Source: a virus. From it: a stretch of 59,811 bases of DNA. Positions within the stretch are counted from its first letter, which is position 1, and every line of letters starts with the position of its first letter. Under the pieces are notes generated by a model, which saw only the letters and a list, made by a program, of their open reading frames with translations, did not search any database and was not told where the DNA came from. The translations under genes were made by a program, and so were the position numbers. Location of the stretch: the IMG/VR virus record IMGVR_UViG_3300042806_000334, positions 1-59,811 of that record. One strand, written 5' to 3'. Positions 33,233 through 58,966 of the stretch are shown here, piece by piece.

Positions 33233-34471
33233 ATGAGAGTCAAAAAACGAGATGGAACGGTGGAATCTTTAAACCACGCTAAAATTGAAAGTGCAATTAC
33301 AAGAGCACTGGCAAGTGTTGGTACTAAAGACTATGGTTCTTTACCTCAACACATAGCAAATGATGCAATTACTGAAATAGCAGCTAAAAAGCTAGATGTT
33401 ATTCACGTAGATGAGATTCACACTATTGTGGAAAACATTTTAATGAAACGTGACCTTTTTGAACTTGCTAGGGAATATATTGGGTACCGTGTTGCCAATA
33501 AGCGTAGTGTGTTTAAAAAGAGAGCAAACTTAAAACCTTATGAATATCCTGACTTATTAGAATATGTTAATGCTATCAGACACTCTTACTGGATTCATAC
33601 AGAGTTTAACTATACTAGTGATATTCAAGATTTAAAGGTTAATTTAAGCAAAGAAGAAGCAGAAATAGTTAACCGTGCTATGTTAGCAATTTCACAAATT
33701 GAAGTCCAAGTTAAAACATTTTGGGCTAAAGTTGGTGATAGATTACCAAAACCAGAGGTTCAAAGTGTAGGTGCTACTTTCGCTGAGTCTGAAGTCAGAC
33801 ATGCTGATGCTTACTCAAACCTTTTAGAGTTGATGGGATTAAATGAAGAATTTAAGAAAATCTTAACAATTCCTGCCATTCAAAAGAGAATTGCTTATTT
33901 AGACCAGGCCATTCAATACCAAGTAGAAGATAGAGATTATTTCAAAAATGTTATTTTATTCTCTATGTTCGTTGAAAATGTGTCTCTTTTCTCTCAATTT
34001 TTAATCATGATGTCTTTTAACAAGCATCGTAATGTTCTCAAGGGAATTTCAAATGCGGTAGAGGCAACTTCTAAAGAAGAAGACATTCATGCTAGATTTG
34101 GGTTTGATATTGTTAATATCATCAAAAAAGAAAATCCACGTTGGTTTACTCAAGACATTATAGATAGAATAAAAGAGATTACACTAAATGCCTATGAAGC
34201 AGAATCTGAAATCGTGGATTGGATTTATGGTAATAGTGATTTAGACTTTTTGCCTAAACAATTAGTTAAGGAATTTGTTAAAGACAGATTTAATCAATCC
34301 ATGAAAGCAATAGGTTTAGAAGAAGTCTTTGAAGTAGATAAAGTCAAAGTTAAAGAGACGGCATGGTTTGCTGAAGAAATGCTGGGAACTAAAAATGTAG
34401 ATTTCTTTGTAAAAAGAAGCACAGCATATTCTAAGAAAACAAAATCATTCACTGAAGACGATTTATTCTAG
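33233..34471 (+). CDS. nrdB: Ribonucleotide reductase beta subunit with N-terminal ATP-cone
   Basis: 412 residues. Residues 1-92 are an ATP-cone (KRDGTVESLNHAKIESAITRAL). The ferritin-like core follows, with likely metal ligands E157, E187 and H190 (EVRH), E248, E283 and H286 (EDIH), and Y194 at the position of the E. coli radical tyrosine (EVRHADAY). The C terminus FTEDDLF is the usual acidic tail that docks into the large subunit. Normally the allosteric cone is on NrdA; here NrdA lacks it. Beta subunits with fused cones are known from some bacteria, where dATP inhibits by altering the oligomeric state of beta. Confidence 0.9.
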   Translation: MRVKKRDGTVESLNHAKIESAITRALASVGTKDYGSLPQHIANDAITEIAAKKLDVIHVDEIHTIVENILMKRDLFELAREYIGYRVANKRSVFKKRANLKPYEYPDLLEYVNAIRHSYWIHTEFNYTSDIQDLKVNLSKEEAEIVNRAMLAISQIEVQVKTFWAKVGDRLPKPEVQSVGATFAESEVRHADAYSNLLELMGLNEEFKKILTIPAIQKRIAYLDQAIQYQVEDRDYFKNVILFSMFVENVSLFSQFLIMMSFNKHRNVLKGISNAVEATSKEEDIHARFGFDIVNIIKKENPRWFTQDIIDRIKEITLNAYEAESEIVDWIYGNSDLDFLPKQLVKEFVKDRFNQSMKAIGLEEVFEVDKVKVKETAWFAEEMLGTKNVDFFVKRSTAYSKKTKSFTEDDLF

Positions 34472-34487
34472 TAAGGAGGAATAATAC

Positions 34488-36140
34488 ATGGCATTCGAGT
34501 GGCTTAACAAAGAATCGAGAAAATTCTTATCTCGTGGTTATCTAATGGAAGGACAAACTGCAGAAGAAAGAATTAGACAAATTGCTAACAAAGCAGAAGA
34601 GTATTTAGGCATTCCTGGATATGCTGATAAGTTTTATGACTATATGGGAAGAGGATTCTACTCACTTTCTTCTCCTGTCTGGTCCAACTATGGCATTGAT
34701 AGAGGATTACCTGTGTCTTGCTTTGGTTCTTATATTGAAGATAGTATGGATTCTATTTTATATGGACACGCTGAAAACGGTATGCTCATGAAAGGTGGGG
34801 GTGGAACTTCAGGTTATTTTGGTGAACTTCGTGGTCGTGGTGCTCCAATTAAAGATAGTGGAGAATCTAGTGGTGCAGTTCACTTTATGAGAATGTATGA
34901 CACCTTAGCTTCTGTTGTGTCGCAAGGTAGTGTGCGTAGAGGATTCTTTAGTGCATATTTACCCATCGAGCACCCTGATGCAGAAGAATTCTTAGACATT
35001 GGCACTGAAGGTAACCCTATTCAAGGACTTACTCACGGTATCACTGTTTCTGATGCTTTCTTACAAAAGGTTAAAGATGGTGATAAACAGGCTCGTAAAT
35101 TATGGGCTAAAGTTCTTCAACGAAGAAGTGAGATAGGTTATCCATATATTTTATTCTCTGATAATATTAATAATGGAAGACCTGATGTCTATAAAGATAA
35201 AGATATGAAAATCTTTGCTAGTAACATGTGCTCTGAGATTGCATTACCTTCTAATCCTAATGAAACTTTTACATGTGTTCTTTCTTCAATTAACTTACTA
35301 CACTGGGAAGAAATCATTAAAACAGATGCGATTGAAGTTCTTACTTACTTTTTAGACACTGTTGTCACTGAATTCATCAACAAGACAGAAGGCAAAGAAT
35401 ATCACAAACGTGCAAGAAACTTTGCCATTAGACATCGTGCTCTTGGTTTAGGTGTATTAGGTTGGCATTCTTATTTACAATCAAACATGCTTTCTTTTGA
35501 AAGCCGTAGTGCAGCTAAGAAAAACTTAGAAATTGCCAAGACATTAAAAGAAAGAACTTACAAAGCCTCTGCTGAATTAGCAGCCAAGTTTGGTGAACCA
35601 GAAATTCTTAAGGGTTATGGAAGACGTAACACTACCTTAATGGCGATTGCCCCTACAAAGAGTTCCTCTGCCATCTTAGGACAGGTTTCTCAATCCGTTG
35701 AACCTGAGTTCTCTAACTACTATGTTAAAGACTTATCTAAGTCAAAAACAACAATTAAGAATCCATACCTTAAAGAATTATTAAAAAAATATGACAAAGA
35801 CACTGAAGAGATTTGGGACTCTATTCAAAAAGCAGATGGTTCGGTTCAACATCTTAAATTCTTAACTCAAGAAGAACGTGAAGTATTTAAGACCTTTGCT
35901 GAGATTAATCCACGTGCCATTATTGACCAAGCAGCTGTTCGTCAGGAATACATTGACCAAGCTCAATCTATCAACCTAATGATGCCAGCCAGTGTTCCAG
36001 TTAAAGAAATTAATGCTTTAATGCTTTATGCTCACGATATGGGTGTTAAAACATTATACTATCAATACGGCATGAGCCAAGCACAAGAACTGTCTCGTAA
36101 AAAGGTTATGAGTGAAGGTTGTGTAAGTTGTGAAGGCTAA
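34488..36140 (+). CDS. nrdA: Ribonucleotide reductase alpha subunit, cone-less class I
   Basis: 550 residues, ribosome site AAGGAGG. Key residues: C78 (PVSCFG) and C263 (TCVLSSINL) as the redox pair, C248 within NMCSE as the thiyl cysteine with N246 and E250. LYYQYG near the C terminus carries the tyrosine pair. The C-terminal CVSC (545-548) receives electrons from thioredoxin. It begins directly with the catalytic domain and has no ATP-cone, explaining its short length. It makes deoxynucleotides for phage replication with the preceding two proteins. Confidence 0.93.
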   Translation: MAFEWLNKESRKFLSRGYLMEGQTAEERIRQIANKAEEYLGIPGYADKFYDYMGRGFYSLSSPVWSNYGIDRGLPVSCFGSYIEDSMDSILYGHAENGMLMKGGGGTSGYFGELRGRGAPIKDSGESSGAVHFMRMYDTLASVVSQGSVRRGFFSAYLPIEHPDAEEFLDIGTEGNPIQGLTHGITVSDAFLQKVKDGDKQARKLWAKVLQRRSEIGYPYILFSDNINNGRPDVYKDKDMKIFASNMCSEIALPSNPNETFTCVLSSINLLHWEEIIKTDAIEVLTYFLDTVVTEFINKTEGKEYHKRARNFAIRHRALGLGVLGWHSYLQSNMLSFESRSAAKKNLEIAKTLKERTYKASAELAAKFGEPEILKGYGRRNTTLMAIAPTKSSSAILGQVSQSVEPEFSNYYVKDLSKSKTTIKNPYLKELLKKYDKDTEEIWDSIQKADGSVQHLKFLTQEEREVFKTFAEINPRAIIDQAAVRQEYIDQAQSINLMMPASVPVKEINALMLYAHDMGVKTLYYQYGMSQAQELSRKKVMSEGCVSCEG

Positions 36141-36513: not shown

Positions 36514-38187
36514 ATGATACACATCTTCGAGGATAAACCAAACAAATTATCCGGGAATACTTCGTTATTCCTTTCTTTTTCTTTTAATCAAGATGTTATT
36601 AACATTATTAAATCAAGTGGCTCTTCTAACTACGGTAAAACTACTAAATTGTGGGAAGTTCCTGTTACAAGCTTAGCCTATTTACTTGATAACCTGGTTT
36701 ATTATGATGACATTAAACTGACGATTAAAGAAGAAAATGAGAAAAAAGAAGAGGTCTTACCTGTCTTAAAGTATAGAACAAAACCATTCCCATACCAACT
36801 TGAAGGTATAACCTATGGTTTAAATCATGATAAATGGTTACTTTTAGACTCACCAGGCCTCGGAAAGTCTCTCCAGACCATTTACCTTGCCGAAGAGCTA
36901 AACGCTCAACGTGGGCTTAAACACTGCCTTATAGTATGTGGTGTGGCAACCCTGAGAGCAAACTGGGAAAAAGAGATAAAAAGACACTCAAATAAGGATT
37001 GTGTCATTATAGGCAAGAAAACCAACTCCAAAGGCAAGGTTAAGTGGGAAACCATACCTAAGAGAGCAGAACAGCTTAGAAGCAAGATAGATGAGTTCTT
37101 TATCATCATGAACATTGAAACCTTAAGAAGTAATGAAGTTATAGAAGCCCTTAAGGAAAATGTTAATGAAATAGACATGATTATCTTTGATGAAGCCCAT
37201 AAAGCTAAGGGATGGTCAAGCCAACAAGGCAAAAACCTATTGAAATTGAAGGATTTCCGCTATAAAGTAGCGTGTACAGGTACAATCCTTATGAATAACC
37301 CTTTAGATGCTTTTGTACCTTTAAAATGGATAGATGTTGAAAAAGCAACTGTTACAACCTTTAAAAACCAGTATTGTGAGTTCGGGGGGTTTGGAGGGTA
37401 TGAGATTGTAGGGTTTAAGAACCTAAATTTGCTCAAGGACGAGCTGGAAATATGTTCCCTAAGAAGAACTAAGGATTTACTTGATTTACCCCCTAAAAAC
37501 GTTATAAATGAGTTTGTAGAGCTTTCTGAAGAGCATAGAGCCTTTTATGACAGTGTAAAAGATGGGGTTAAGTCTGAATGTGATAAGGTAGAACTTAACA
37601 GTGCCAATATTTTGGCCCTAACGACTCGTTTAAGGCAAGCAACGAGTTGTCCTAGTGTTCTGACCTCAACCCCTATCGTTTCGTCGAAATTAGAGCGTGC
37701 TATTGACCTTGTAGACGAAATTGTGGGAAATGGTGACAAAGTAGTCATTATGAGTACCTTTAAAGAGCCTGTTTATCTTTTACAGGAGGCATTAAAGAAG
37801 TATAATCCTCTTATAGGCTTAGGAGACCTAAAAGACTCAGAAGTATCAAATAACATAGATTTGTTTCAAAATGAATCAAAATATAAGGTTTTCATAGGAA
37901 CTACCAGTAAAGTGGGTACAGGGATAACTTTAACGAGTGCTAGGTATATGATTTGCCTTGACTCCCCCTGGACATCAGCCTTACAAGAACAGGTGGAGGA
38001 TAGAATTCACCGAATAGGTTCTAAAGAGCCAGTATTCATTTATAGACTTATTGCTGACAATACAATAGACGTTATGGTGGCTAAATTGTTAGAAAAGAAG
38101 AAAGCCATCAGTGATTTTATTGTCGACGATGCAAATGACGAAGACACCATGAATATATTAAGAAATTACATAAAAGAGGAGATTTAA
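36514..38187 (+). CDS. SNF2-type superfamily 2 helicase/ATPase
   Basis: 557 residues. Motif I DSPGLGKSLQT (about 112-122), motif II FDEAHKAKG (about 227), CTGTILMN as motif III near residue 252, the C-terminal helicase lobe with VVIMSTFKEPV, and TSARYMICLDSPWTSALQEQ followed by RIHRIGS (motif VI, arginine finger). The SWI2/SNF2 features are clear. Phage members remodel or translocate on DNA in replication or recombination, comparable in role to T4 UvsW, which is inference. N-terminal 90 residues form a small accessory domain. Confidence 0.88.
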   Translation: MIHIFEDKPNKLSGNTSLFLSFSFNQDVINIIKSSGSSNYGKTTKLWEVPVTSLAYLLDNLVYYDDIKLTIKEENEKKEEVLPVLKYRTKPFPYQLEGITYGLNHDKWLLLDSPGLGKSLQTIYLAEELNAQRGLKHCLIVCGVATLRANWEKEIKRHSNKDCVIIGKKTNSKGKVKWETIPKRAEQLRSKIDEFFIIMNIETLRSNEVIEALKENVNEIDMIIFDEAHKAKGWSSQQGKNLLKLKDFRYKVACTGTILMNNPLDAFVPLKWIDVEKATVTTFKNQYCEFGGFGGYEIVGFKNLNLLKDELEICSLRRTKDLLDLPPKNVINEFVELSEEHRAFYDSVKDGVKSECDKVELNSANILALTTRLRQATSCPSVLTSTPIVSSKLERAIDLVDEIVGNGDKVVIMSTFKEPVYLLQEALKKYNPLIGLGDLKDSEVSNNIDLFQNESKYKVFIGTTSKVGTGITLTSARYMICLDSPWTSALQEQVEDRIHRIGSKEPVFIYRLIADNTIDVMVAKLLEKKKAISDFIVDDANDEDTMNILRNYIKEEI

Positions 38188-48644: not shown

Positions 48645-50225
48645 ATGAATGCCGATATCTTTAATTTTGAATTGGGTGTTTCTAACTCAGCGGAAAAGAC
48701 CCAAAAAATAATCAACAAGGTCAAAAAGCCCAAAGAGGCTAAAGTCACTGTTGAAAAGAAAATCAAGTCTAAGAAAATATCGGTAGAAGAAAAGATTTCT
48801 TTAATCACTGAGAAAGTTAATAAAACCTTAGAAAAACAAAAAGATGATGTTTTAGTTATTAGAACGAAACAAGAGTTCTCTAATTATATAACTCAAGCTA
48901 TTCATAACGACATCATCGCTATAGACACTGAAACAAATAACTCCCTAGACCCACTAACTGCAAAGTTAATGGGTCTCTGTGTCTATACTCCTAATAATAA
49001 AAAAGTATACATTCCTGTAAACCATGTTGATTATAAAACCGGAGAAAAGCTCCCAAATCAACTTACAGAACAAGATATAAAAGAAGAACTGTCTCGTGTT
49101 GTAGATGCTCAAATTTTGACCATCATGCACAACTCAAAGTTTGATTTCCAAGTTATCAAAACAACTTGTGGTATCGAACTTCCCTGCTATTGGGATACAA
49201 TGATTGCTGCCAAGCTTATTGATGAAAATGAATTGGCAGGATTAAAACAACAGTATATTTTACATATTGATTCAGAACAAGAAAAATACTCTATTGAAGA
49301 CTTATTTGAAAAAGAAGAATATGCTATCTTTCCACCTGAAGTTTTTGCATTATATGCTGCTACAGACCCTTACATGACTTATAAACTATATGAATATCAA
49401 AAACCAATCATGGAAAGTGAAGAGTATAAAAAAGTTAATAACCTTTTCCGTGAAGTAGAAATGCCTGTTATTCGTGTAGTTGCAGAAATGGAACTCGCTG
49501 GTATTGAACTTGACAAAGAATACGCAAAGAGACTTAGTGTCAAATATCATGCTAAGTTAGATGAATTAGATAAAAGAATTGCCGTTGAATTAGACAAGTA
49601 TAAATCTAGAATAGATGCCTGGAGAACAACTCCTGATGCTAACACTAAACCTAAAAAGAAGTCAGGTGAAGATGGTGGTAAATCCAAATCAGAACAATTA
49701 CCTGATGTTATTAACTTAGGAAGTCCGACTCAACTTGCTATCCTGTTATATGATGTAATTGGTGTTGAGCAAGTAAGTAAAGAAAGTCCACGTGGTACTG
49801 GGGAAGATATTCTTGAGGCTATCAATATACCTCTATCTAAACTTATCTTAGAAAGACGTGGTTTAGTTAAACTATTAGATGCTTTTATCGATTCCTTACC
49901 TCAAAAGGTTAATCCTATTGATGGAAGAGTTCACGGTCATTTTAATCAATATGGTGCAGCCACTGGACGATTCAGTTCTAGTGACCCTAACCTACAACAG
50001 CTTCCAGCATCAAATAAAGAAATACGTATGATGTTTAAAGCCAAGACAGACTACAAGGACGTAGAAATATCAAAGGATGAGTTTTATGAAGTAAGTAATA
50101 TCTCAGAGGTTCAAACAAGTAATGGGTGGAAACGTGTCAAAGATGTTGTTCCAGGTGATATTATTGAAGGAGATGTAGTAAAAAGAGTGAAAACTGAAGA
50201 AAAGTACACATATTTATATATTTAA
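48645..50225 (+). CDS. DNA polymerase family A, N-terminal fragment with exonuclease and Hint-like insertion
   Basis: 526 residues. 3'-5' exonuclease motifs: IDTETN near residue 93, MHNSKFD near residue 164 and AATDPYMTYKLYE. The thumb follows, and RFSSSDPNLQQLPASNKEIRMMFKA marks the approach to motif A. After MMFKA the sequence changes to FYEVSNISEVQTSNGWKRVK then VVPGDIIEGDVVKRV, which resembles a Hint/intein-like beta domain inserted before motif A in some phage polymerases. The frame stops at 50223-50225 without reaching motif A. The remaining polymerase is encoded after a GIY-YIG gene from 51072. Confidence 0.85.
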   Translation: MNADIFNFELGVSNSAEKTQKIINKVKKPKEAKVTVEKKIKSKKISVEEKISLITEKVNKTLEKQKDDVLVIRTKQEFSNYITQAIHNDIIAIDTETNNSLDPLTAKLMGLCVYTPNNKKVYIPVNHVDYKTGEKLPNQLTEQDIKEELSRVVDAQILTIMHNSKFDFQVIKTTCGIELPCYWDTMIAAKLIDENELAGLKQQYILHIDSEQEKYSIEDLFEKEEYAIFPPEVFALYAATDPYMTYKLYEYQKPIMESEEYKKVNNLFREVEMPVIRVVAEMELAGIELDKEYAKRLSVKYHAKLDELDKRIAVELDKYKSRIDAWRTTPDANTKPKKKSGEDGGKSKSEQLPDVINLGSPTQLAILLYDVIGVEQVSKESPRGTGEDILEAINIPLSKLILERRGLVKLLDAFIDSLPQKVNPIDGRVHGHFNQYGAATGRFSSSDPNLQQLPASNKEIRMMFKAKTDYKDVEISKDEFYEVSNISEVQTSNGWKRVKDVVPGDIIEGDVVKRVKTEEKYTYLYI

Positions 50226-50257
50226 CACCCACCTATATCTTACTGTGAAAAGTCACA

Positions 50258-50271
50258 GCTAAATTAGGTAA
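50258..50271 (+). promoter_or_regulatory. Class 3 promoter-like element before homing endonuclease
   Basis: GCTAAATTAGGTAA, a weaker match to the class 3 consensus, just after a CTGTGA-AAAG-TCACAG hairpin (50243-50258) and followed by AAAGGAG. Confidence 0.35.
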
Positions 50272-50285
50272 AGGAGAAATAATAT

Positions 50286-51008
50286 ATGATTGTGTATAAG
50301 ATTACTAACAGGATGACGAATAAGTGCTATATTGGCATCACAGAGAAGAGTTTAGAGGATAGGTGGTATGGACACCTTACCAGACTAAAAAACGGTGACC
50401 AGAGGCATCTATATAGCTCAATGAGGAAGTATGGTATAGAAGCCTTCACCATTGAAATAATAGACGAAACAGACAATTATGAAGAACTTCTTAAAAAAGA
50501 GAAATATTATGTATCTTTATATGATTCCTTCAATAATGGGTATAATATGACAAATGGCGGTGATGATAACCCTATGAACGTGGGATTGGTAAAGGATAAC
50601 CATGATGCTAAAATGAGAAGTAAAGATGTAAGAAGCAAGATTTCATTATCAATGAAGGCATATAGAGAGAAGAAACCCTTCTCTAAAGAGCACAGAGATA
50701 AAATTTCTGAGGCTATGAAGGGGAACAAGAACTTCGGCTCCGGTGATACTCGTTCAGTAGGTTGCTATTGTGTACTCAATACTGGAGAAAGGTTTGAGTT
50801 CCATTCCATAAAAGATGCAACAAAGTGGTGGTTTGAAGCCTTTCATCCGTTTGGTGATAACTATGCTGAGTGTACGTTCCAAAGGAAAATTAAAAAATCT
50901 ATTAAAGGAGAGCCTATTACATATGTATCCTCCCATAATAGCAATAAGAAACACCCCGATGGTAAAAAGGTTATTGTGGTAGATAATATTAAATGGTTCA
51001 AGCTATAA
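50286..51008 (+). CDS. GIY-YIG homing endonuclease with NUMOD-type DNA-binding modules
   Basis: 240 residues. VYKITNRMTNKCYIG at the N terminus is the GIY-YIG core, with R27 in EDRWYGH as the likely catalytic arginine and KEKYYVS later. HRDKISEAMKGNKNFG is a NUMOD3-type module, and GERFEFHSIKDATKWW a NUMOD1-like helix-turn-helix. Such enzymes cut allele-specific sites to spread their gene. It interrupts the DNA polymerase coding sequence. It carries its own class 3-like element and ribosome site. Confidence 0.9.
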   Translation: MIVYKITNRMTNKCYIGITEKSLEDRWYGHLTRLKNGDQRHLYSSMRKYGIEAFTIEIIDETDNYEELLKKEKYYVSLYDSFNNGYNMTNGGDDNPMNVGLVKDNHDAKMRSKDVRSKISLSMKAYREKKPFSKEHRDKISEAMKGNKNFGSGDTRSVGCYCVLNTGERFEFHSIKDATKWWFEAFHPFGDNYAECTFQRKIKKSIKGEPITYVSSHNSNKKHPDGKKVIVVDNIKWFKL

Positions 51009-51017
51009 AGAAAGTTG

Positions 51018-51023
51018 TATAAT
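51018..51023 (+). promoter_or_regulatory. Class 2 promoter element between endonuclease and polymerase C-terminal part
   Basis: AAAGTTGTATAATATAGT, with ATG 5 bases after TATAAT (51029). It could drive the downstream polymerase fragment independently. Confidence 0.45.
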
Positions 51024-51071
51024 ATAGTATGAAGAATGTTTTATTAAAAACAGGAAAAGGAGGTGGTGTCA

Positions 51072-51131
51072 ATGAAAAAGTCAATTAAAACTAGAGTTCC
51101 TTATACTTTAGTTGGAAGTGACTTTTCGTGA
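51072..51131 (+). CDS. DNA polymerase, short middle fragment ending in motif A
   Basis: 19 residues starting at ATG 51072 with a strong AAGGAGGTG ribosome site. It encodes KKSIKTRVPYTLVGSDFS and stops at TGA. VGSDFS is the start of family A motif A, with the metal-binding aspartate. The next bases give the rest of motif A in another frame. Either this is the true start of the C-terminal fragment, joined by a recoding event, or a leader-like coupling peptide whose stop overlaps the GTG of the next frame. Confidence 0.55.
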   Translation: MKKSIKTRVPYTLVGSDFS

Positions 51132-52165
51132 GTTCGCAACAAGAACCACGAATGCTTTCAAACTACTCCGGTGACGAAGATATGATTCAAGCTTATAAAG
51201 ATGGCAAAGACTTATACGCTACCATCGCTAGTAGTGTTTATAAGAATGATTACTGGGATAACATGGAGTTCCGTCAAGATGGAACACCTAATCCAGAAGG
51301 TAAAAAGAGACGTAATGCCTGTAAAACACTTTTGTTAGGTATTATGTATGGTCAAGGTGTTACAGCTGTTGCTGAAAGCATTGGAAGCTCTATTCAAGAA
51401 GCCCAGTCTATTATTGATGGTTTCTATAACTCTTTCCCTAAAGTAAAGGGTTGGATGGATGAAACCACAGCCTTTGCCAAGAAAAATGGCTATGTAGAAG
51501 ACTTGTGGGGCAGAAGACGTAGATTGCCGGATATATCCTTACCTAGATTTGAAATATCCTATAATAATGCTTCAAAAGACCAATCCCCCTTTAATCCACT
51601 TCTTGGCACTGCTGATAGAAAACAAGATGATAAAGTCATTGCTCTCTTCTATAAAAAATTAGAAAATGCCAAATTTAAAAAAGAAGTTGATGCTGTAACT
51701 CAAGATGCAGCAAAATACGGTATTAAGATAAAGAATAATGGTGGTTTTATTGCTCAGGCAGAACGTCAGTGTGTTAATGCTAGAATCCAAGGTGGTTCGG
51801 CTACCATGACTAAGATTGCCATGAATAAACTCTTTAGAGATGAAGAGTTAAATAAGTTAGGGTTTAAATTACTTCTAACGGTGCATGATGAGTTAATTGG
51901 TGAATGCCCTAAAGAAAATGCAGATAAAGTAGCTAAAAGACTTACTTCTGTTATGAAGACCTGTATTGATGATGTTTCTTCTGTACCATTCAAATGTGAT
52001 GCTGATGTTAGTGAGCACTGGTACTATAACGATTATGTTAGCACATTAAAACAGGAGTATAAAAAGATACTTCCAAGCTTAAGCAAAGAGGATGCAATTC
52101 AACACATTATTTTAGAGCATACCGAAATGTCTCCAGAAGAAATTAGAAGAATACTCACTGAATAA
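51128..52165 (+). CDS. DNA polymerase family A, C-terminal palm/fingers fragment
   Basis: 345 residues from GTG 51128, reading SSQQEPRMLSNYSGDED (second half of motif A), KRRNACKTLLLGIMYGQG (motif B, fingers) and LLTVHDELIGECP (motif C with the second catalytic aspartate). GTG overlaps the TGA of the middle fragment as GTGA. Alone it lacks the motif A aspartate, so it can be active only if joined to, or assembled with, the upstream parts. Its sequence otherwise looks intact and conserved rather than decaying. Confidence 0.85.
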   Translation: MSSQQEPRMLSNYSGDEDMIQAYKDGKDLYATIASSVYKNDYWDNMEFRQDGTPNPEGKKRRNACKTLLLGIMYGQGVTAVAESIGSSIQEAQSIIDGFYNSFPKVKGWMDETTAFAKKNGYVEDLWGRRRRLPDISLPRFEISYNNASKDQSPFNPLLGTADRKQDDKVIALFYKKLENAKFKKEVDAVTQDAAKYGIKIKNNGGFIAQAERQCVNARIQGGSATMTKIAMNKLFRDEELNKLGFKLLLTVHDELIGECPKENADKVAKRLTSVMKTCIDDVSSVPFKCDADVSEHWYYNDYVSTLKQEYKKILPSLSKEDAIQHIILEHTEMSPEEIRRILTE

Positions 52166-56674: not shown

Positions 56675-57331
56675 ATGTCACATTTAATTGTTAATTTACC
56701 ATCTATCAATGTTTGGGTAAGAAAAGAATATCTTACTGATTTTAAACATGGTAAGGGCGAATTTGTAAGAGGAGTATGGATATCTGCTAAAAGCATTCCA
56801 GGTAGGGCATTCTATTTTGAAACGTACTTACCTGAATACGGTGCCATGTATGATAAGTTACCTATCTCTGCATTTGTATCAAGTCCTGTCACACCCACAC
56901 CTGATTTAAAGTTACCTGACTTACAATTCTGGAACTGTATGGATTATGGCATTACCGTGTTGAGAAAATCTTTTATTAGCTCAATGGACTTTGAGTTGTA
57001 TACACGTTCAGGAGCTAAAATGAAAGGTTCTTATCTATTTACTCTTGACAATTATCACGGGGATGTTAATATGATAGATACTAACACTTCAGAAAAGCCT
57101 GATGAACACAAATCTCACAACGTAATACAATTAGCAAATGGTCAGTTCGCAATCTATCCAAACAATAGAATGAGAATTTATGACTTAAGTTTAACACCAG
57201 AGAAACCATTAAAACCTGATTTTAAAGTTTCTACACAAATGTATCAAGTAGAGAATGGATTAGATTGGAAGAGATTAGGCGATACAGACGAATATTTCTG
57301 GAAGAACTCTGACGAAGATTTTGAAAAGTAA
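56675..57331 (+). CDS. Conserved-type phage protein of unknown function
   Basis: 218 residues. Beta-rich, Pro-rich; RKEYLTDFKHGKGEFVRGVW, then GRAFYFETYLPEYGAMYDKLP and a WKNSDEDFEK end. I recall similar unassigned proteins in phages next to recombination genes; no function is known to me. Last gene of the recombination operon. Confidence 0.6.
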   Translation: MSHLIVNLPSINVWVRKEYLTDFKHGKGEFVRGVWISAKSIPGRAFYFETYLPEYGAMYDKLPISAFVSSPVTPTPDLKLPDLQFWNCMDYGITVLRKSFISSMDFELYTRSGAKMKGSYLFTLDNYHGDVNMIDTNTSEKPDEHKSHNVIQLANGQFAIYPNNRMRIYDLSLTPEKPLKPDFKVSTQMYQVENGLDWKRLGDTDEYFWKNSDEDFEK

Positions 57332-57340
57332 ACAAAAGTG

Positions 57341-57369
57341 TTGACAAGCTAAAGACAGTATGATATACT
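57341..57369 (+). promoter_or_regulatory. Class 1 promoter
   Basis: TTGACA (57341-57346), 17-base spacer, TATACT (57364-57369), TGA extension. Precedes a GGAGG site and the gene at 57393. Confidence 0.82.
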
Positions 57370-57392: not shown

Positions 57393-57755
57393 ATGTTGGA
57401 AAACTTAGTAGACAAATGCCGTCAGCTCCAAATGCAACAAGAGAAACTTGAAGAAGAAGTTAAAGCACTTAAGTCTCAAATCTCTGAGCAAATGGTAAAA
57501 GAAGGTTTAGAAAAGTATATCTCACCGTCTGGGGTGTTGGCACAACTTTCTGAAAAAGAAACCTTCAAATACTTAGACGAAGCAGCTATGGTTGCTTGGT
57601 GCGAAAGTAATAACCACCCAGAATACGTCCAAAAGAAGATTGTAACTACAGAGCTAAATAAAGAGTTGAAGAAGGGAATGTCCTTGACCGAGGCCTTAAA
57701 ACCCAACTTCACACGCACTGTAGCACAAGTCCTTACTGTTAAAGATAGTAAGTAA
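57393..57755 (+). CDS. Coiled-coil protein with small C-terminal domain
   Basis: 120 residues. ATG 57393 follows a GGAGG site; an upstream in-frame start at 57360 would lie within the promoter region. N-terminal coiled coil (QLQMQQEKLEEEVKALKSQI) and a helical C-terminal domain. Independent class 1 promoter suggests early expression. Function unknown. Confidence 0.6.
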   Translation: MLENLVDKCRQLQMQQEKLEEEVKALKSQISEQMVKEGLEKYISPSGVLAQLSEKETFKYLDEAAMVAWCESNNHPEYVQKKIVTTELNKELKKGMSLTEALKPNFTRTVAQVLTVKDSK

Positions 57756-57765
57756 GGACAACCAT

Positions 57766-58148
57766 GGGCCTGTCATGGTTTCGCTTAGCACATCAGAGCC
57801 TCAACTGCATCGGTTGGTCACCTAAAACCAAAAAAACAATAACTGCTAAATCTTTATTTAGCCGAGTCTCAGCCTTCTTCAGCAACTTGTTTGCTCCTGT
57901 AATGGCCCTTAGCTACTAACAAACCTGTAGCGACTCCGAAGACCTGTGATGTCTAGTAACAGCAATCTTCGTAATATCTAGACTGGCAGAAGTTGACTTA
58001 GTAGTTTCTCATCCTTCTGCGAGAAACAGAAACTAAGAAGACACAGTTATCGTCCATTATGATTGTGTCTCCACCTAAAGTGGAACAAGATGTAGATGTT
58101 GTGGTAAAGAGTGTTAATACAGGGGTTCGACTCCCCTCAGGTCCACCA
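57766..58148 (+). ncRNA. ssrA: Transfer-messenger RNA (tmRNA)
   Basis: 383 bases. Acceptor GGGCCTG pairs with CAGGTCC plus A and encoded CCA, with G3-U70, the alanine identity. D-like CATGGTTTCG and T arm AGGGG/CCCCT are present. TTAGCAC (57784) pairs with GTGTTAA near the 3' end (P2). Three H-type pseudoknots follow the tag: CGAAGA/TCTTCG with GTCTAG/CTAGAC, CAGAAG/CTTCTG with GTTTCTC/GAGAAAC, and AGACACA/TGTGTCT. Resume codon GCT at 57845; a 24-codon tag starts AKSLF and ends PVMALSY, with TAA (57917) in the loop of the GCTAC/GTAGC hairpin. The tag end is not the usual LAA. It rescues stalled ribosomes by adding the tag. Confidence 0.95.
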
Positions 58149-58149
58149 T

Positions 58150-58226
58150 CGCCAGTTGGAGAAGTGGCTTAACTCACTACCCTTTCACGGTAGCATTCAT
58201 GGGTTCGAATCCCATACTGGTGACCA
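58150..58226 (+). tRNA. tRNA-Glu(TTC)
   Basis: Acceptor CGCCAGT/ACTGGTG, discriminator A, encoded CCA; anticodon stem CTACC/GGTAG with loop CTTTCAC (anticodon TTC); T stem ATGGG/CCCAT. It starts 2 bases after the tmRNA, so both are likely processed from one transcript. Confidence 0.9.
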
Positions 58227-58270: not shown

Positions 58271-58966
58271 ATGCTAACAGAAGAACAAATCAAACAAAAC
58301 AAAGAAAAGTTCATTGAATTGGTTAAATCCATCTCAATTGAAGGGGCCAACATTGATGGTCTTATTTCCTTTTTAGAGGGGAGTGATTTCTTTAATGCAC
58401 CAGCATCTACTCAGTACCATTCATCCTTTAAAGGTGGTTTATGCCAACACTCTTTAAATGTTTATTCTAATCTTACGAAGATTGTTAATACTTTTGCCAC
58501 TGAACACACGGTTATTACATCTACAACTGAAGATGGTATTGAAACAGAGGAAAATATTGTTAAGCCCAAATACTCATCAGACACTCTAAAGATTGTCGGA
58601 TTGCTTCATGACCTATCAAAAGTAAATTTCTATGAGAAGTATGTTCAAAATAAAAAGGTTTACTCACCAAACGGTAGTAAGCATGATGAGTTGGGTAACT
58701 ATGACTGGGTGTCTGTAGAGTCCTATAAGGTCATTGATGCCAAAGATAGAATGATTGCAGGAAGCAAGGGTATGAACTCTTTCTTACTTGTAAGCAGATT
58801 TATCCCTTTAGAACATGAAGAAGTTATTGCTCTTGTTAATCAGTATGCTGGAAGTGACAAATCCGAAAACACAGAAGATTTACCTTCCATATTAAACAAA
58901 TATAACTTAGCTGTTTATCTTCATATGGCAGATACTATTTCTACTTATTGCACGGAAAAAGTATAA
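58271..58966 (+). CDS. HD-domain phosphohydrolase
   Basis: 231 residues from ATG 58271, chosen for the GGAGGT site 5-10 bases upstream. CQHSLNVYSNL supplies the first His, LLHDLSKVNFYE the central HD pair, and a later His and Asp (HEEVIALV, HMADTIS) complete the set. HD enzymes hydrolyse nucleotides or nucleic-acid derivatives; the phage substrate is unknown. Stop overlaps the next start (TAATG). Confidence 0.78.
   Translation: MLTEEQIKQNKEKFIELVKSISIEGANIDGLISFLEGSDFFNAPASTQYHSSFKGGLCQHSLNVYSNLTKIVNTFATEHTVITSTTEDGIETEENIVKPKYSSDTLKIVGLLHDLSKVNFYEKYVQNKKVYSPNGSKHDELGNYDWVSVESYKVIDAKDRMIAGSKGMNSFLLVSRFIPLEHEEVIALVNQYAGSDKSENTEDLPSILNKYNLAVYLHMADTISTYCTEKV

Follow-up and report, generated by a model that had tools for sequence, protein, structure and literature searches.

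A phage tmRNA with a long tag that lacks the LAA end, and its likely ties to ClpX-less Bacilli

In the tmRNA cycle, alanylation at the G3–U70 pair is followed by SmpB-guided entry into a stalled ribosome, resumption at a GCU codon and release at UAA, and the tag added in this way determines what becomes of the rescued fragment. ClpXP needs the two terminal residues of the tag. LAA-less tags are known in Mollicutes, where the co-evolution of tag and protease has been described, and tmRNAs are carried by the mycobacteriophages Bxz1 and Wildcat and by Bacillus phage G. What do phages use a tmRNA for, and must its tag match the protease of the host? According to published surveys, phage tmRNAs occur in 402 of 18,146 phage genomes (PMC9004378), some huge phages encode both a tmRNA and SmpB (PMC7162821), and by 2014 ten tmRNA phages had been named, one of them with little beyond the tRNA-like domain (PMC4131195). 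The pattern described here, of a phage tag ending in LSY and a likely host group without ClpX and LAA tags, makes these standing questions directly testable.

The tmRNA gene and its tag

The window, by which we mean the whole virus record analysed (linear, 59,811 bases), contains a full-length, one-piece phage tmRNA gene with an encoded CCA end at 57766–58148 on the plus strand, where all the features given below also lie. A cmscan search of Rfam matched family RF00023 at exactly these positions and over the entire model (1–374 of 374), scoring 91.1 bits (gathering score 47; E 4.1e-34), and this was the sole tmRNA in the record. ARAGORN reported four tRNAs in the window and missed the tmRNA; surveys based on ARAGORN alone can overlook divergent phage tmRNAs. 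The preliminary description, made from the sequence before any search, had proposed a complete tmRNA with the same boundaries, and both the covariance model and the base pairing bear it out.

The structure comprises 13 helices with 85 pairs, including three H-type pseudoknots, and in the window sequence every one of the 85 is a standard base pair. The 5' strand of the P1 acceptor (GGGCCUG, 57766–57772) pairs with 58138–58144 and contains G3 of the G3–U70 pair, which together with the T arm (AGGGGUUCGACUCCCCU, 58121–58137) and the CCA end completes the alanine-acceptor features of a tmRNA. The 5' strand of P2 (57785–57811) forms 20 pairs with 58089–58117. The stop codon of the tag lies in the loop of a hairpin with five pairs (GCUAC/GUAGC, 57912–57931), and the pseudoknots follow at the PK2 (57937–57983, 11 pairs), PK3 (57986–58035, 15 pairs) and PK4 (58039–58084, 18 pairs) positions. 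The acceptor, P2, stop-codon hairpin and pseudoknots named in the preliminary description, as well as the resume codon and tag frame, are thus all present. The structure is also fully paired in a 94%-identical homologue (L004), and four pairs are changed on both sides between the two sequences (columns 26–347, 34–340, 174–205 and 278–303 of alignment A2): two in P2, one in the PK2 pseudoknot and one in the PK4 pseudoknot, with the PK3 pseudoknot invariant. Slid versions of the structure paired 38–44% of cells and gave no compensatory change; 39 of 500 shuffles reached the observed pairing values, a weak control with two distinct sequences. Because only two sequences are compared, and the structure was drawn on the same two, the Rfam score bears most of the weight.

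One element departs from the usual pattern and was absent from the preliminary list of features: the conserved UUCGAC of the D-loop region is missing, and UUCGCU is found in its place at 57780–57785. Five Bacilli genomes have tmRNAs with the same variant (see below), so we regard it as a variant position that does not exclude the gene from the tmRNAs.

The AAUAACU motif upstream sets the tag frame, which runs from the GCU at 57845 to the UAA stop ending at 57919 and encodes AKSLFSRVSAFFSNLFAPVMALSY, 24 residues. It alone is both open and provided with a resume motif, and its peptide ends in LSY rather than LAA or VAA. The +1 frame reads LNLYLAESQPSSATCLLL and the +2 frame starts with a stop; none of 14 successive start positions gave a peptide with an LAA end. 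The frame chosen in the preliminary description, with its long LAA-less tag, therefore stands. In L004 the tag is AKSLFSRVAAFFSNMFAPVMALSY, which differs by S9A and L15M, plus one silent change, and keeps the terminal FAPVMALSY.

A tRNA-Glu gene (UUC; 58150–58226, ARAGORN) follows the tmRNA after one spacer base. A complete tmRNA beside tRNA genes on a phage genome is an arrangement shared with Bxz1, Wildcat and phage G. A promoter-like TTGACA-17-TATACT (57341–57369), whose second hexamer is preceded by TG, is located upstream of an open reading frame (ORF) at 57393–57755, the tmRNA and the tRNA-Glu; it is a consensus match only, one of seven such sites found in the region against 5.3 expected. 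The ORF at 57393–57755, directly upstream of the tmRNA, is small and weakly similar to Pam3 gp33-like proteins.

Related phages and viral tags

Two further contigs (L002 and L003) carry a gene identical to the window tmRNA, and none of the group's four contigs has a truncated tmRNA. On the contig that holds L004, a second stretch (L016) contains 16 of the 18 window proteins compared, in the same order and with 59–96% identity; it lacks a GIY-YIG gene and the ORF at 57393–57755. More distant relatives (L005 and L006) share flanking genes with the window, the protein encoded at 58271–58966 being 50% and 42% identical; their records, which may be incomplete contigs, gave no tmRNA match, and neither did five contigs related by their DNA polymerase, above the cut-off. 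This distribution points to local gain or repeated loss, a reading limited by the incompleteness of contigs.

Judged from aligned sequences, three other phage-type contigs carry tmRNAs of the window type, with tags of 24–26 residues. The tag of L188, a 230-kb virus recovered in a second viral scan, is AKSIFNKIANFFRGFGAQRVAALA, and it aligns with that of the window ungapped, with 8 identities in 24 and a BLOSUM62 sum of 34, a value equalled or exceeded by 2 of 100,000 shuffles. For L081 (ANSIKNKIANFFRGFGAQRVAALA) the sum is 20 (94 of 100,000 shuffles as good), and the last 35 bases of its gene are identical to those of the window gene. The tags of L081, L188 and L148, a contig discussed below, retain an -AALA end. 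These three and a 333-kb phage (L092) combine UUCGCU with a nearly window-like 3' end, and L004 also has UUCGCU (in L092 it was read from the 5' end of the gene). None of the 18 window proteins has a relative in the examined stretches of L081, L188, L092 and L148, so phages with no visible relationship in those stretches have this tmRNA type in common. A pattern search for further viral tmRNAs with UUCGCU yielded, beyond the known members, what seem to be chance TTCGCT occurrences before ordinary tRNA or tmRNA ends. Among the matches listed, the tmRNA region found only tRNA-like pieces in annotated phages, and a search with one window protein found no annotated phage relative. A tree of the tRNA-like domain does not resolve the position of the window; its nearest leaf after L004 is L029, a viral tmRNA whose tag ends in LAA.

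The viral tags were surveyed by scanning viral contigs with a tmRNA 3'-end pattern, which returned at least 120 stretches. After leaving out 43 pattern loci without an ARAGORN tmRNA, in many of which the contig starts inside the gene, 73 loci with 58 distinct tags were kept. Among the matches listed, 34 of the 58 tags end in LAA or VAA, 48 in AA and none in Tyr. Both its tag type and its UUCGCU set the window tmRNA apart from the phage tmRNAs already known. Long tags, presented in the preliminary description as unusual, are less rare in viruses than was implied, since 11 of these 58 listed tags have at least 24 residues.

A candidate host group among the Bacilli

A search of a genome collection with the T-arm pattern gave one match, L148, on a 3.4-kb contig of the metagenome-assembled genome (MAG) UBA3835, placed by NCBI among uncultured Bacilli, in an order that we take to be possibly RF39. 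The tag of L148, read by hand, is ANTNSIFNKIANFFRGFGAQRVAALA. The MAG also has a separate tmRNA of its own, with the tag DNSYMRAPRAQSLCLA, which makes L148 probably a contig of phage origin that was grouped with the MAG; it may be misbinned.

A tmRNA was found in 127 of 147 genomes of the UBA3835 order. ARAGORN gave tags for 111 of the 130 loci taken; for 11 of the other 19 the best-scored candidate was a tag-like peptide, none of them ending in LAA or VAA. Leaving out two second tmRNAs (L189 of genome G135 and L191 of G028), the 109 remaining loci, with 84 distinct tags, include no LAA end and two VAA ends. Their tags have 8–21 residues, with ends that include FAA, ACA, AAC, ARA and CLA, and in three genomes they end in AY (GNYNYSYAY, GNYNYALAY and EDDYIPYANATPAMAYAY, that is, SYAY, ALAY and MAYAY). 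None of these host tags is identical to that of the window. In G135 two tmRNA genes (L189 and L216), separated by about 3.5 kb, encode almost identical tags that end in SAI. The usual GTTCGA T loop is missing from the 3'-terminal region of the tmRNAs of G138 and G153 (L193 and L194).

The proteases were examined in 29 genomes hand-picked for varied tags, 27 of the UBA3835 order and two of the wider class. At E 1e-20, ClpX was found in none of the 29, with ten of ten bacterial controls positive. Lon was detected in 28 of them, which means that the missing ClpX is not an effect of MAG incompleteness. In the likely host group, 28 of the 29 genomes examined thus combine Lon with a missing ClpX, an arrangement that the host of the window phage may share. 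Across this uncultured order the loss of ClpX and the loss of LAA tags coincide, and phages seem to follow.

Several features link the window phage to this group. Five genomes of the UBA3835 order, the best five of 395 in the class, have a tRNA-Glu with 92% identity to that of the phage, whereas annotated phages and plasmids among the matches listed reach about 80–82% over most of its length. P2, P3 and the resume motif share 48–52 nt at 83–85% identity with three tmRNAs of the order (L149, L193 and L194). The tmRNA type in common with L148 is a third link. The C-terminal half of the window tag is nearest to host tags of a PAM...Y/A type; for L182 and L196 p is about 0.01, with no correction for the several comparisons made. 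Like the tmRNAs of the order, the phage tmRNA has an LAA-less tag, with -AY ends in three of the host genomes and a similar stretch from P2 through P3 to the resume motif; unlike it, they have shorter tags, none equal to that of the phage, and keep GAC in UUCGAC in 106 of the 111 called by ARAGORN.

Other observations count against a precise placement of the host: UUCGCU is found in five Bacilli tmRNAs outside the order (L294, L295, L307, L317 and L318, whose tags end in AC and are 18 or 24 residues long), and the tRNA-Glu is 91% identical in three genomes outside it. Two more genomes of the class have tags akin to that of L188 (VKTKLANFFGGNQAVAFAA and the manually read SNKISNAFASLFRVNSAALA; shuffle p 0.003 for both), which are not significantly akin to the window tag (p 0.29 and 0.14). 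No relative of the phage was found by DNA polymerase in the 395 Bacilli genomes at E 1e-40. We infer as host a ClpX-poor part of the Bacilli rather than one named order.

Proposed function and neighbouring genes

The reading that we hold with slightly more belief than doubt is that of a working ribosome-rescue RNA suited to hosts without ClpX, whose products would most likely be degraded by Lon. The host would be one of the uncultured, small-genome Bacilli related to Mollicutes in which ClpX was lost; its enzyme would charge the phage tmRNA with alanine, and its SmpB would carry it. Pfam scans of 40 window ORFs (the window has 76 ORFs of at least 80 amino acids on both strands) revealed neither SmpB nor a protease, so we assume, as a weak point of this reading, that SmpB comes from the host. 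On entering a stalled ribosome, the RNA would shift translation to its own frame and cap the nascent chain with AKSLFSRVSAFFSNLFAPVMALSY. Where ClpX is missing, an LAA end would have no reader and host tags could drift to ends such as -FAA, -ACA, -AAC, -CLA and -ALAY; the phage tag, with its long aromatic stretch and an end of small residues and Tyr, would follow the host style and is probably host-matched rather than an invention of the phage alone. Lon, or FtsH, would most likely read it, so that fragments would be destroyed and ribosomes freed for phage translation.

The nearest precedent is Mesoplasma florum, which lacks ClpXP and whose LAA-less tag is read by Lon (Gur and Sauer 2008, as reported in PMC8138137). 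The likely hosts resemble it, and the SY end would be most simply understood as a degradation signal given up where it has no reader, with Lon taking over. The likeness to Mesoplasma florum and other Mollicutes consists in a long LAA-less tag and in likely hosts that bear Lon and no ClpX; this is a likeness of tag type, and the differences are that the tag is on a phage and that Lon would be its reader only by analogy. Against reading by Lon count the ClpP-like genes in 8 of the 29 genomes, which leave room for a ClpCP-type reader, and the preference of a Yersinia Lon, reported in PMC11986505, for a terminal His and not Tyr, with further residues also important. Reduced-genome orders related to Mycoplasmatales have been described in a paper whose accessible text does not mention ClpX (PMC10868615). 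Phage tmRNAs and the LAA-less tags of Mollicutes are already known; the tag family, its link to a ClpX-less lineage and the breadth of LAA loss there were not met in the literature searched (few subscription papers). More tentatively, and quite possibly wrongly, a ClpX-less lineage of Bacilli may have re-tuned its rescue tags to another protease and the tmRNA family of its phages in parallel, the N-terminal AKS[IL]F...FF adding, for example, stronger capture by Lon or delivery to the membrane.

The preliminary description had also suggested rescue as an escape from ClpXP, for which nothing specific was found, ClpXP being probably absent from the host group; the ClpX and Lon counts, the missing LAA ends and some Tyr ends among the host tags favour two of its other suggestions, that the tag suits an unusual host or directs products to another protease. 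A related reading seems unlikely to us: ribosomes would be freed, but the tag would act as a non-degron or as a helix that seeks the membrane, and truncated proteins would survive or reach the membrane. SY does stand in place of the two terminal residues that ClpXP requires, and the tag is among the most hydrophobic (equalled or exceeded by 6 of 58 distinct viral tags among the matches listed and by 2 of 84 distinct host tags), but the presumed reader is missing anyway from the likely host group and L081, L148 and L188 retain their -AALA end. The hydrophobic moment of residues 1–17, significant in L188 (shuffle p 0.006), is not significant in the window (p 0.06), and the idea of an amphipathic helix was dropped for the window tag.

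The gene might instead be a passenger, part of an acquired tmRNA/tRNA-Glu cassette that has no role now. The records of L005 and L006, possibly incomplete, are without a tmRNA, as would be expected in this case; four compensatory pairs and a tag frame kept open in two homologues of 94% identity, and a full-length gene in every contig of the group, make it improbable. We give still less credit to a decoy, a UUCGCU tmRNA that would bind SmpB or the ribosome, rescue poorly and thereby block trans-translation by the host. Its precedent is phage DS6A, for which a tmRNA reduced to the tRNA-like domain was proposed to act in this way (PMC4131195), and a departure from UUCGAC also occurs in five phage-type relatives of the window tmRNA. 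The tag frame, resume motif, pseudoknots and acceptor of the window tmRNA are nevertheless intact, and the five Bacilli genomes with UUCGCU indicate that this variant is compatible with function.

Some features of the other genes were noted. DNA polymerase A (48645–52165) is divided into two ORFs (48645–50225 and 51128–52165) with a GIY-YIG endonuclease ORF between them; in L016 the two parts are 22 bases apart, with no endonuclease. The ORF at 56675–57331 has about 70% DNA identity over some 280 bases to cyanophage ORFs labelled purM or ferredoxin, and since it has no Pfam match these names look like carried-over labels. Genes for the small and large chains of ribonucleotide reductase occupy 33233–36140, followed by an SNF2-type helicase gene at 36514–38187.
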